Shown here: positions 4,895-43,083 of the stretch, piece after piece
Position numbering within the stretch: position 1 is the first letter of the stretch
Layout of the letters: each line of letters opens with the position of its first letter
Source: Prochlorococcus sp. AG-436-M02
GTDB taxonomy: Bacteria > Cyanobacteriota > Cyanobacteriia > PCC-6307 > Cyanobiaceae
Length of the DNA stretch: 64,000 nucleotides
Reading direction: 5' to 3'
Assembly: GCA_003212515.1 (NCBI GenBank)
Contig: QCPL01000002.1
Span: 1-64,000 of the forward strand
Translations under genes and position numbers: made by a program
The notes under the pieces: generated by a model
The model's database searches: none
What the model saw: only the letters and a program-made list of their open reading frames with translations
What the model was told of the DNA's origin: nothing

Positions 4895-6013
4895 ATGTTT
4901 GATTTTCAGATTCATTCAAAATGTCCTAATACTGGTGCAAGAGTGGGAAGTTTTTCAACTCCACATGGAAATTTAAATACACCACAATTTATGCCAGTTG
5001 GGACGCTAGGCACAGTTAAAGGTATAACCGCAAAACAGTTGAACGAGTTGAATGCTCAAATGATCCTTGCCAATACTTTTCATTTGCATATTCAACCAGG
5101 TGAAGAGATTGTTAAGAATGCAGGAGGATTGCATGATTTTATGGGTTGGGATCAACCAATTCTTACTGATTCTGGAGGATACCAAGTTTTTAGCTTGAGC
5201 AAGCTAAGCAAAATAGATGACCAAGGTGTTTCGTTTAAGAACCCGCGTAATGGAAGAAATATTGAGTTGACTCCTGAAAAAGCAATACAAATTCAAATGG
5301 ACTTAGGCGCTGATGTTGCAATGGCTTTTGATCAATGTCCCCCATACCCAGCTACGGAGTTCGAAGTTGAGACTGCTTCCATAAGGACCCATCATTGGCT
5401 AGAGAGATGTGTGAAGGCCCATACGAGAAAAGATCAGGCTTTGTTTGGGATTGTCCAAGGAGGTTGTTATCCACATTTAAGAGAAGAAAGCATCCGTCGT
5501 GTGGTTAGTTTTGATTTGCCTGGTATAGCTATTGGTGGAGTTAGTGTTGGAGAACCCCCTTCGGAGATTCATAAGATAGTTCGTCATTTGCATCCTCTTT
5601 TGCCTGAAAATTTACCCAGGTATTTAATGGGAATTGGAACAGTTCGAGAAATGGCCATAGCTGTTGCAAATGGAATTGATCTTTTTGATTGTGTTCTTCC
5701 TACAAGATTGGGTCGTCATGGCAGTGCTTTGGTAAGAGGTGAACGTTGGAATTTGCGTAATGCTTGCTTTAAAAATGATTATCAGCCTTTAGACATATCT
5801 TGCGCTTGTGAAACTTGTCTTACTTACAGCAGAGCATACCTGCATCATTTAATTCGTAACGATGAATTGCTTGGCCTTACTCTTCTTAGCTTGCATAACC
5901 TCAGTCATTTAATACGTTTTTCGCGTTCAATGACCCTTGCAATTAAAGATGGATGTTTTTCAGAGGATTTCGCTCCGTGGCAGAAAGACTCTATTGCGCG
6001 CCACACGTGGTAG
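4895..6013 (+). CDS. tgt: Queuine tRNA-ribosyltransferase (tRNA-guanine transglycosylase)
   Basis: Tgt exchanges guanine 34 for a deazaguanine base in tRNAs with GUN anticodons. The 372-residue product shows the substrate-binding segment [25 protein letters not shown], the nucleophile region [17 protein letters not shown], and a zinc site CACETC followed by a downstream His. The ATG at 4895 is preferred over an in-frame TTG at 4868 because it gives the usual short N-terminus before [17 protein letters not shown]. It is divergent from cobS, and psbK follows 18 bp downstream on the same strand. Confidence 0.96.
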
Positions 6014-36893: not shown

Positions 36894-37475
<582 letters not shown>

Positions 37476-37521: not shown

Positions 37522-37989
37522 ATGAAATCGGCAGTTACTACGGTTATTTCTTCAGCAGATGCTTCAGGAAGGTTTCCTACACTAAGTGACATTGAGTCTG
37601 TCAAGGGCTCTTTTGATAGAGCTTCTGCAAGGTTAGAATCAGCAGAAACGCTTGCAGCTAATATAGATAGATTTACATCCGAATCTTTAGACTATGTTTA
37701 TGGAAATAACTCTTATGATCAGGCTAATAAAGACAAATGTTCCAGAGATATTAATCACTATTTGAGGTTGATTAACTATTGTTTAGTAACTGGAGGCACT
37801 GGTCCTTTGGATGAATGGGGCATTGCTGGTATGCGCGAAGTAATTAGAGCCCAGCAGCTTCCTACGGTGGCTTATATAGAAGCTTTAACATTTATTAGAG
37901 ATAAAGTAAATGTTCCTGGAGAGATGAGTCAGCAGGCTGCTACTGAGTTTAAAAGTCTCCTAGATTATTTAATAAATGCGCTAGCCTAA
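37522..37989 (+). CDS. cpeA: Phycoerythrin alpha subunit (class III), reduced chromophore set
   Basis: A 155-residue alpha chain, shorter than the usual 164 or so. The bilin-binding Cys73 in NKDKCSRDINHYLRLINY corresponds to alpha-82. The segment before it is about nine residues shorter than in typical CpeA. At the alpha-139 position (family context RNRGCAPRDMS) this protein reads IRDKVNVPGEMS, so that cysteine is gone; Cys87 is in a helix and is not a known site. The subunit probably carries a single bilin. GGTGPLDEWGIAG is fully conserved. Confidence 0.95.
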   Translation: MKSAVTTVISSADASGRFPTLSDIESVKGSFDRASARLESAETLAANIDRFTSESLDYVYGNNSYDQANKDKCSRDINHYLRLINYCLVTGGTGPLDEWGIAGMREVIRAQQLPTVAYIEALTFIRDKVNVPGEMSQQAATEFKSLLDYLINALA

Positions 37990-38020: not shown

Positions 38021-38626
38021 TTGAATTTGAATAAAAATATACCCACAATAAATGATGTCTTAGCCGATTTCGATCACCCTAATCCGAATATAAATAGATG
38101 TGCATTTAAAAATATGAAAGAGTTTTGGCCTAGGGAATCTATCGTAATATTAATTAGAAACTTAGATAGTAGAAATATCCCACTAAGAAGGAAATCAGTT
38201 AAAGCACTTGGTTATTTTGGTATAAGTATAGTTAAGGATATTATTCAACTATATTTCTCAAGTAAGGATAATATTTTAAAAGTAAGTTGTTTAAAAGTGT
38301 TAGTTATAGTTGCATCGAATTATTGTCTCAATGATTTTAAAGAAGAGATGAAGAAAGTAATAGATGCTGCAATTAAAGATCAGTCTGTGGAAATCATTCT
38401 TAGTACAATTTCTTTACTTCGACAAATTGGGGAAGAATCCCTTCCATACTTGAAAGCCTTATGCCGAGATAAAAATGTTCTAAAAGCCAAAGCAGCAATT
38501 ACAGCTATATCCGAGATTCCTGAAATGTCAGTAGATCCTTTTCTTAAATCAATTATTAGTGATAGCTCTTTAGATAATCTTGTAAGGGAGAGTGCCTATG
38601 AGGCATTAAACTTTAAAGTTAATTAA
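38021..38626 (+). CDS. cpeZ: CpeZ, HEAT-repeat partner of bilin lyase CpeY
   Basis: A 201-residue all-helical protein with HEAT/PBS-lyase repeats (for example RRKSVKALGYFGISIVKDII and VRESAYEALNFKVN). CpeZ assists CpeY in attaching phycoerythrobilin to phycoerythrin and acts as a chaperone-like factor. Length and position (32 bp after cpeA) match CpeZ. The start is a TTG at 38021; the next in-frame ATG would remove 31 residues including the first repeat. Confidence 0.87.
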   Translation: MNLNKNIPTINDVLADFDHPNPNINRCAFKNMKEFWPRESIVILIRNLDSRNIPLRRKSVKALGYFGISIVKDIIQLYFSSKDNILKVSCLKVLVIVASNYCLNDFKEEMKKVIDAAIKDQSVEIILSTISLLRQIGEESLPYLKALCRDKNVLKAKAAITAISEIPEMSVDPFLKSIISDSSLDNLVRESAYEALNFKVN

Positions 38627-38647: not shown

Positions 38648-39539
38648 TTAAGATTTAATTTTCTTTAGACTTAGATTAAAAACTCTAATTACTTCTTGAT
38701 CTTTTTCATTCAGAAGTGCTTCCTTAACTTTTTGCTTTTGGCTAATAGCATTTAATTTCATTAGAGAAAGTGCTGCTTGTTTTCTAATTAGTGGATTCTT
38801 TGCTTTTAATTTTTCTGCTAAAAGTTCAAAATTCCAATTTTCGTCAACTAGCAGTCCCATTAATTTAATAGCTTCTATTTGTACTTCATCTGATGAATCA
38901 TCGATTGAATTAGTAAGAATATCTTTTGCATCAGTATCATTCAATAATTGAATTTGCTCTCCAAGAGCTGCAATTGAAGATGCGCGAACTTTTTCGTTAT
39001 GTGAAAGTACGCCTCTTTTCAAAACCTTTGCGCCCTTCAATCCTATAAATGAAAGCGCCCAGCTTGCCAATCCACATTGCATTTCTGAACTGTTGGGATT
39101 AGCAAGTACATCAAGTAATTTTTCAGCAGCATCTTCTCCAAATATTGCTATTGCTCCTACTGCTGAGCCTTGAACAACAGGATCTTCATCAGTTAACAGA
39201 GCACTTAATAGATCAGGCAGAGCTGCTGGATCCCCTACTAGCTTAAGTGTTTTTGCAGCAGCCCTTCTTACAGTTACATTTTTACTATTTAATAAGGCTT
39301 CGCGAAGCTCAGGTAGGGCAGCCCCCCCCAATCATCCCAAGGCTTTCTGCAAAGGTTCTTCGTAAGAGACCTCTTTTGTCACCTAGCCCAGTAATAAGTT
39401 TTTTAATTAGATTTATATCTGCTTCGGGCTTTCCCCCTCCCTTTAGTGTTTCTTTTAATTCAGCAGCTAATTTTGCAGCTTCTTCTGAACTAAGAGCTGC
39501 ACCCTCTGTGAAAATAGTCCGCGGGGATTCTTCTTGCAA
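38648..39539 (-). pseudogene. mpeX: HEAT-repeat bilin lyase (MpeX / CpeF-MpeV type), interrupted by a one-base frameshift
   Basis: The two parts form one protein of about 296 residues. Part 1 (39539 down to the G-tract) reads EESPRTIFTEGAALSSEEAA and ends in SLGMIGG; part 2 continues AALPELREALLNSKNVTVRRA in the next frame, with five or more HEAT repeats to 38648. The frames meet at an eight-base tract (C8 at 39322-39329, G8 on the coding strand); seven bases would restore one continuous frame. Length and repeats fit the E/F-type lyases (MpeX of Prochlorococcus; CpeF/MpeV). No other defect is seen, so it may be a sequencing error, a slippery/phase-variable tract, or a recent inactivation. The start is a TTG at 39539. 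The symbol is tentative. Confidence 0.75.
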
Positions 39540-39618: not shown

Positions 39619-40953
39619 ATGAATCCAGGGCCTTTTGATAATCTTCCCCCTTTAACTAAGAGCGATGCTTTAAGAATTTTAAACACTCCTGTAAAAGAAT
39701 TAGCTTTATCAAGCGATTATTATAAAGCTGTTTTTCACCTTGCTAAATTCCAATGTCCTGAATCTGAAGAAGCTCTAATTAACTTAGTTAAATCTCACTC
39801 TAAAGAACCAGAAATTCTTCTTGCAAAGCGTAAAGCAATTGAAGTATTAGGCAGAATGAAATCTAAAAAAGCAATTCCTTATATAGGGAAGAATTTGCAA
39901 AGTGATGATCCTTATATTGTTGAAAACTCTGCTTTGGCATTGCAAGAAATTGGTTGCAAAAATATAAAATTTCAAAATATTATAGGATCATTGCTTGATA
40001 ATCCTAACCATAACCGTCGAGCCCTAATTCAAAGCTTGGCTAAGATGGGAGCAATTACAGAACTTTCAAAAATACAAAAAATTTGTTGTCAAGAAAATGT
40101 ATCTCCTGGAATAAAAGGAGCATCTATAGCAGCCATAAAGATTTTGACAGGTGAATTACATGATCGTAATATTTTAAGAGAATATTTAGATCTTGATAAT
40201 CAAAATAATAGACAATCTGCGGTACAAGATATTATTGATTGCAATTCATATGAGTTGTTAGGAGACGTTATTAATACACCTATATCTCCTTTCTTTAGAT
40301 TAAGAGCACTTGATTTAATTTGGCCTAAGATTGAGAGTAAAGTTCTAGAATTTAGTATTTTAGATGCTATAGATTTTGTTTTATTAGATGATCCTAGGAA
40401 GATAAGATTAATTGATAAGCAAACATCATTTGACGATTCTAAAACTTTAATTAATGAACTATTTAGTACAGATTTTAACCAATGTTATCTTTCATTAGCT
40501 AAACTTATAAAGACTTCACCGCATGATATATTGATGTCTGTAAAAGATAATTGGGATAGGTTTAAAAAAGATTATGGCGCAGTTTATTTTCTGGTGATTC
40601 TATTTAGGTATTTGAACGTACCTTTGCAAAACATTGAAAAATTAGGAATGAAATTAGTTAAACATTGCTTAGATGACTCTTGGCCTCCATATATGAAATT
40701 TAAATCTCAGGCTATTCTTTTATCATATAAACTTGATCTTAGTTTTTTTGAGAATCATATTATAACTTGGTTGGATGATGAATTAACCCCTAATTGGAAC
40801 TGCCGCTATGCAGCTTTACTTTGTCTTGATAATCTAATAGACAATAATCAATTCGCTTTAAACGTTGAAGAAATCTTGGCAGGAAAAAATGATTCTAATC
40901 AATTTGTTCGACTAAAAACAACTAATATATTGTCAAATTTGATAGCTAAGTAG
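39619..40953 (+). CDS. cpeY: Phycoerythrobilin lyase CpeY
   Basis: A 444-residue HEAT-repeat lyase. CpeY, with CpeZ, attaches phycoerythrobilin to the alpha-82-type cysteine of phycoerythrin, and that cysteine is the one CpeA here keeps. Repeats occur in the N-terminal half (KRKAIEVLGRMKSKKAIPYI, ENSALALQEIGC) and at the C-terminus (CRYAALLCLDNLIDNNQ). It lies on the plus strand between two minus-strand genes, so it needs its own promoter in the 79-bp gap at 39540-39618. It is convergent with cpeT, 5 bp apart. Confidence 0.9.
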   Translation: MNPGPFDNLPPLTKSDALRILNTPVKELALSSDYYKAVFHLAKFQCPESEEALINLVKSHSKEPEILLAKRKAIEVLGRMKSKKAIPYIGKNLQSDDPYIVENSALALQEIGCKNIKFQNIIGSLLDNPNHNRRALIQSLAKMGAITELSKIQKICCQENVSPGIKGASIAAIKILTGELHDRNILREYLDLDNQNNRQSAVQDIIDCNSYELLGDVINTPISPFFRLRALDLIWPKIESKVLEFSILDAIDFVLLDDPRKIRLIDKQTSFDDSKTLINELFSTDFNQCYLSLAKLIKTSPHDILMSVKDNWDRFKKDYGAVYFLVILFRYLNVPLQNIEKLGMKLVKHCLDDSWPPYMKFKSQAILLSYKLDLSFFENHIITWLDDELTPNWNCRYAALLCLDNLIDNNQFALNVEEILAGKNDSNQFVRLKTTNILSNLIAK

Positions 40954-42270: not shown

Positions 42271-43083
42271 TTAATTTTCAAGCCCTTCTTGATAAATTAC
42301 GTTATCACTAGTTGCAGTGCCCTTCCTAAAGTTTGCTGTATTGATAAAGCTTGATGTAGTTGCCCCGCAAGGCGAATTCCAAAATCTTTGGAATGGGACT
42401 ATATCTTCTCCAAAGACTTCTTCATACTCTAAGGAATCAACCAAAGAATCAACATGCCCAGCGAAACCTTGTTCCGTAATAAGCCGGATATTATCTTGCA
42501 GCTCTTTTTGCTTAATTAATGGGCGTCCTAAGAGATGCATGAAATTCAGTTCTATACATTTTTTCTGAGAGACAGTTTCAACAAAATGATGTCGATAGAA
42601 ATCTGACTTACTTATTTCTCGAATAAATTCTCTAATGGGAATATCGCCATTCCTTAATCTTCTTTCTATTTCAAAAGAGCATTCGCTTGCCATAGGACGT
42701 AAATTCCCAAAAACTTGTTTATATGCAGCATTTATGGCCACCAATAGAGAATCGTCGCAATGAGGCTGAAACCTTTGGTAAGTAAATAACTCTCTGGAAT
42801 TAGTTGTAAGCTTCATTCCCATTACATTTTTGTAATTTAAATATTTTTCTTTTTTAAATGCTGAACTGATTCTCAACATATTTTCATTTGTTATTTCTTT
42901 AGGCTTAGTTTTTGAATTTATTGTAAATAGATTAATCTGGCCAGGCATAGATATACTTCTACAATGCATAATATATGTAATTAGTCTGCTTCCTGCTATT
43001 CGTTGTTTGCCATAAGCTATATAAGGTGTTTGAGCAATCTCTGAGAGCTTAATTTCTAGGCGATGTTTTAATGCTAGATTCAT
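42271..43083 (-). CDS. ppeC: Phycoerythrin-associated linker polypeptide PpeC
   Basis: A 270-residue linker. The phycobilisome linker domain occupies about residues 108-240 (DDSLLVAINAAYKQVFGN, REFIREISKSDFYRHHFVE, LNFMHLLGRPLIKQKELQ, VDSLEYEEVFGEDIVPFQR). The first 100 residues are basic and not linker-like, which might serve to hold phycoerythrin at the thylakoid surface, as proposed for Prochlorococcus; that part is inference. First gene of a minus-strand unit ppeC - 54-aa gene - cpeS - cpeT, whose promoter must lie in 43084-43260. Confidence 0.92.
   Translation of the reverse strand: MNLALKHRLEIKLSEIAQTPYIAYGKQRIAGSRLITYIMHCRSISMPGQINLFTINSKTKPKEITNENMLRISSAFKKEKYLNYKNVMGMKLTTNSRELFTYQRFQPHCDDSLLVAINAAYKQVFGNLRPMASECSFEIERRLRNGDIPIREFIREISKSDFYRHHFVETVSQKKCIELNFMHLLGRPLIKQKELQDNIRLITEQGFAGHVDSLVDSLEYEEVFGEDIVPFQRFWNSPCGATTSSFINTANFRKGTATSDNVIYQEGLEN

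Follow-up and report, generated by a model that had tools for sequence, protein, structure and literature searches.

A one-base split in the putative bilin lyase gene mpeX of a Prochlorococcus draft genome, most probably of technical origin

The bilin lyases CpeF and MpeV attach a doubly linked bilin at Cys50/61 of CpeB (PMC7948978). In low-light Prochlorococcus, this family is represented by MpeX, a putative bilin lyase that is still uncharacterised (PMC7948978, citing Hess 1999). Single-cell amplified genomes (SAGs) form the second point of reference for the present locus. In the data set to which the SAGs named below belong, MDA or WGA-X served to amplify the cells and Illumina to sequence them, and benchmark assemblies of the SAG workflow contained 3.0 indels per 100 kbp (PMC6122165). 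The sister genomes G001, G003, G005, G006, G007, G009, and G010 are Prochlorococcus SAGs. Judging from these relatives and from its draft state, the genome analyzed here, from Prochlorococcus sp. AG-436-M02, is in all likelihood a SAG as well.

A split lyase gene in the phycoerythrin cluster

The window, that is, the whole stretch of 64,000 nucleotides that was analyzed, carries on its minus strand (39539 to 38648) the coding sequence of a single HEAT-repeat protein of about 300 residues, the frame of which is broken where a run of eight G (C8 on the plus strand) holds one base too many. The positions of this gene, of its two pieces and of the neighboring genes are listed in Table 1. The frame of the N-terminal piece is closed by the TGA at 39311-39309. 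Both halves align, at a net offset of +1 nt, to successive portions of the same protein, and their identity to relatives of the SS120 group is 61-80% for the N-terminal half and 64-76% for the C-terminal half. At the site itself, the closest sister reads ATT GGA AAA GCT GCT, while the present sequence reads ATT GGG GGG GGC TGC C, a surplus of one base relative to the sister's codons. Unique sequences flank the tract, for instance GAAAGCCTTGGGATGATT and GCTGCCCTACCTGAG. A sequence-only reading of this stretch had already located the extra base in the G8 run at 39322-39329, splitting a phycoerythrin (PE) bilin-lyase-family gene at about residue 72; these coordinates are correct, as is the breakpoint.

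Table 1. Features of the split gene and its surroundings (positions in the window)
Feature	Position	Strand	Evidence or remark
cpeB (PE beta), with Cys50/Cys61/Cys82	36927..37475	+	Pfam PF00502; Cys positions
cpeA (PE alpha)	37522..37989	+	Pfam PF00502
cpeZ-like HEAT protein	38021..38626	+	Pfam HEAT_2; in most relatives examined, also located between cpeA and mpeX
mpeX, CpeF/MpeV/MpeU-family HEAT-repeat bilin lyase, +1-shifted in the assembly	38648..39539	-	Homologues, tree, Pfam HEAT_2 in the C-terminal half
C-terminal piece, 227 aa open frame	38648..39331	-	Family frame from the tract to the stop
N-terminal piece, 76 aa	39309..39539	-	Family frame to about residue 70, then TGA
G8 run with the extra base	39322..39329	-	At most 4 G in a row here in 77 distinct homologous sequences
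cpeY-like lyase	39619..40953	+	NCBIfam CpeY below cut-off, E 1.9e-67; syntenic

We identify the split gene as mpeX, which forms the branch of low-light Prochlorococcus within the CpeF/MpeV/MpeU family of bilin lyases. With both frames combined, it encodes a HEAT-repeat protein of about 300 residues that is homologous to the family along its full length. In a 98-row tree, the window protein falls inside a 53-row Prochlorococcus (MpeX) clade with support 100/95, next to AG-363-B11 and the AG-436-K22/AG-412-P08/AG-402-G10 group, and apart from WH7803 CpeF and both RCC307 copies. The family assignment of the sequence-only reading stands and is refined by the tree and the literature (PMC7948978), which place the gene as MpeX and not as CpeF or MpeV.

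The genomic context is that of the family: mpeX lies in the PE cluster with cpeBA, cpeZ, and cpeY, and the order cpeB-cpeA-cpeZ-mpeX(-)-cpeY is common to the SS120-like finished genome G002 and most loci examined. CpeB has Cys50, Cys61, and Cys82 in the loci where these residues were scored, and the Cys positions in the window confirm the earlier statement that Cys50/Cys61 are retained here. Near the cluster, a protein with a phycobilisome rod-core-linker domain (42271-43083, minus strand; CpcG-like, below cut-off) is probably a PE-associated linker of Prochlorococcus.

In genomes of the same family, the mpeX homologue consists of one uninterrupted frame of roughly 290-375 codons, with two exceptions, and its halves are not separate genes, an arrangement that the sequence-only reading had considered. 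In G014, a frame of 228 codons was taken as a candidate shift and rejected, since the gene is truncated by a contig end. In G011 (contig C8), mpeX carries a +1 split at a G9 run at another site, around residue 171 (locus stretch L136, ~2513-2521), about 100 residues downstream of the break described here. Among the loci examined, G011 is the only other one with a broken mpeX, again at a long poly-G run and again in a draft.

Uniqueness of the tract and selection on mpeX

Poly-G tracts of such length are classic contingency loci in other bacteria, and the gene had been suggested from its sequence to be phase variable. Under this explanation, the G run would be a contingency tract toggling MpeX via replication slippage, which is in line with the general occurrence of such tracts and with the presence of a second genus member, G011, likewise split at a poly-G run of mpeX. 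However, comparison of tract length among siblings, as the sequence-only reading had advised, revealed that the site holds at most four consecutive G in any of the 77 distinct homologous sequences (108 loci). The G8 run is unique to this genome and the tract is not conserved at the site among relatives. Moreover, the two split copies do not share a site, and their number is close to what the background frameshift rate of drafts predicts (see below). A literature search yielded no report of phase variation in Prochlorococcus. A phase-variable switch is therefore extremely improbable.

Selection on mpeX was evaluated from dN/dS. Between this genome and its sister G010, dN/dS is 0.152/0.74 (~0.21), compared with 0.138/0.62 and 0.141/0.64 for intact pairs. 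Both halves are alike in this respect, indicating purifying selection as in intact sisters. Relaxed selection and additional lesions, as expected of a pseudogene, are not seen, and both halves are open to their ends. A pattern scan for viral contigs and a phage search found nothing.

These data bear on the possibility that mpeX was truly inactivated, in this cell or its lineage, by a very recent slippage mutation of +1. In that case, Cys50/Cys61 of CpeB would be left unfilled or filled by another lyase, and a PE bilin site would be dispensable in a low-light cell. Slippage at a G8 run is plausible, the break in the frame is clear, and no second copy of mpeX was found in a search of the whole draft genome (1.50 Mb in 53 contigs, 82.8% complete). 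On the other hand, there is no further decay, both halves being constrained like their intact sisters, the only other broken mpeX examined is also split at a long poly-G run in a draft, and the same +1 defect strikes genes that a living cell should not lack (see below). Recent loss, one of the options of the sequence-only reading, is thus not demonstrated, and we regard a true mutation as rather unlikely, although it ranks next after a technical error; at the mpeX locus itself, a single cell truly carrying a fresh mutation would look identical.

Frameshifts at homopolymers in drafts and finished relatives

To place the split in a genome-wide context, 576 kb of this genome were scanned against G002, covering ~497 kb of conserved coding sequence. 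A same-diagonal filter was used, as BLAST alignments otherwise run through the mpeX shift. Three credible shifts were obtained, each consisting of one extra G/C: in mpeX (G8), in metA (C9), and in a protein on contig C12 (C5). For the conserved coding sequence, this amounts to a background rate of ~0.6 shifts per 100 kb. In metA, located outside the window (C1:56831-56839), the extra C is found near the 3' end, and the sequence either side of the run has 87% identity to a finished relative. The C12 gene (around position 5250) encodes a conserved protein of ~211 residues that has no NCBIfam match. Within the same 576 kb, none of 89 conserved coding A/T runs of at least 8 was shifted, as opposed to two of five testable G/C runs (p = 0.002).

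Several further candidates did not survive scrutiny. Those at the petF leader (C27:7268), the mnmH/selU start, and the cobS start were set aside, the apparent shift being located upstream of what is likely the true start codon in each case. The petF-type ferredoxin gene has a poly-C run directly upstream of its start (C27:7268-7275), with eight C here, nine in G008, and 12 in G010; this homopolymer, which is kept but variable in length, may be either technical or a regulatory feature of the leader. An apparent upward shift of G/C run lengths relative to G002 was likewise rejected, as contigs C12 and C27 had been picked for their runs. Genome-wide, G/C runs of at least 8 number eight in 1.50 Mb here versus six in 1.75 Mb in G002, without a clear difference.

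The comparison was extended to G/C runs of at least 8 from 11 drafts (this genome and ten of the same genus) and seven finished or near-finished relatives, with the frame tested on both sides of each run against G002 proteins. Out-of-frame runs made up 9 of 43 testable coding runs in the drafts (petF-leader runs excluded) and 0 of 23 in the finished relatives. This contrast (Fisher one-sided p = 0.015; p = 0.024 without G002, the source of the reference proteins) is moderately strong only, and run lengths are lumped in it. All nine shifts equal +1 modulo 3. They affect mpeX in this genome and in G011, as well as metA, rodA, prs, queC, icd, gmk, and pstS. The majority of the long G/C runs of the draft genomes stay in frame, meaning that a long run need not lead to the error. 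The same poly-G run of icd is in frame as G9 in G007, whereas the close sister G009 has it as G10, out of frame. Very long coding runs that are in frame also occur in drafts (14 in G005 and 12 in G010); in the finished relatives that were examined, no G/C run exceeded 10.

Isocitrate dehydrogenase, guanylate kinase, and PRPP synthetase are enzymes that one would expect every living photoautotroph to possess, and icd, gmk, prs, rodA, and metA should all be indispensable. The same lesion is thus found in unrelated, indispensable genes of this and sister drafts and is absent from the finished genomes.

Slippage rescue of poly-A tracts has been described in insect endosymbionts, and a comparable situation could be envisaged here, in which mpeX is truly shifted by +1 and yet yields its protein through slippage in transcription or a +1 ribosomal frameshift at the G run. 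The unidirectionality of all nine draft shifts, indispensable genes included, is what a general rescue would permit, and purifying selection on both mpeX halves agrees with an expressed product. However, no shift is present among the 23 testable coding runs of finished relatives, three of which belong to the same genus, and the shifts, rather than being inherited, occur here and there in different genes and at different sites. Rescue of mpeX by slippage is consequently very unlikely, and we give equally little credence to the wider proposal that some low-light Prochlorococcus cells carry real +1 poly-G errors in many genes, indispensable ones among them, and express these through transcriptional or translational slippage.

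Origin of the surplus base and comparison with known systems

Taken together, the mpeX split is most probably an error of the draft, presumably a SAG, and not a property of the organism. That the error is technical is the most probable explanation because the same one-extra-G lesion breaks indispensable genes in this and sister drafts. Accordingly, a misread base, which the sequence-only reading had named among its options, is the best supported of these, with the +1 defect recurring at G/C runs of indispensable genes in sister SAGs. The second split, in G011, does not make mpeX special, since the background rate predicts it: at ~0.6 shifts per 100 kb, about one further mpeX split is expected among the ~100 loci examined.

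Under the technical explanation, whole-genome amplification, sequencing or assembly would have placed one surplus G in the long G run. In the living cell, mpeX would then be a single intact frame, the product of which, by family resemblance, would be expected to join bilin to Cys50/Cys61 of CpeB. The data are explained most economically by a systematic gain of one base at G/C runs in drafts from amplified single cells.

As biology, the split is probably of little consequence, as the lyase is most likely intact. As a property of these Prochlorococcus drafts, it is of wider relevance, as a one-base, one-direction error at long G/C runs affects about one fifth of the testable coding cases. Therefore, claims of pseudogenes or phase variation made from such drafts need support at the level of reads.

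The proposed origin finds its closest parallel in the homopolymer indel errors of draft SAGs, as other genes, in this genome and in its sisters, show the same +1 pattern at G/C runs. Resemblance to the poly-G contingency genes of other bacteria is limited to the long G run inside a coding frame; unlike in those genes, the tract of mpeX is not conserved, and mpeX is not a surface or restriction gene. Poly-G slippage in Prochlorococcus, as proposed above, would be the counterpart of the poly-A rescue of insect endosymbionts. As for the enzyme, CpeF of Fremyella and MpeV of Synechococcus RS9916 belong to the same protein family (PMC7948978), and their target pair Cys50/Cys61 is present in the CpeB encoded here; they differ in belonging to another subfamily than MpeX, the activity of which is putative. 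With MpeX of low-light Prochlorococcus, finally, the gene shares its clade, its HEAT repeats, and its opposite-strand place between cpeZ and cpeY, the difference being the extra G that splits the copy in this assembly.
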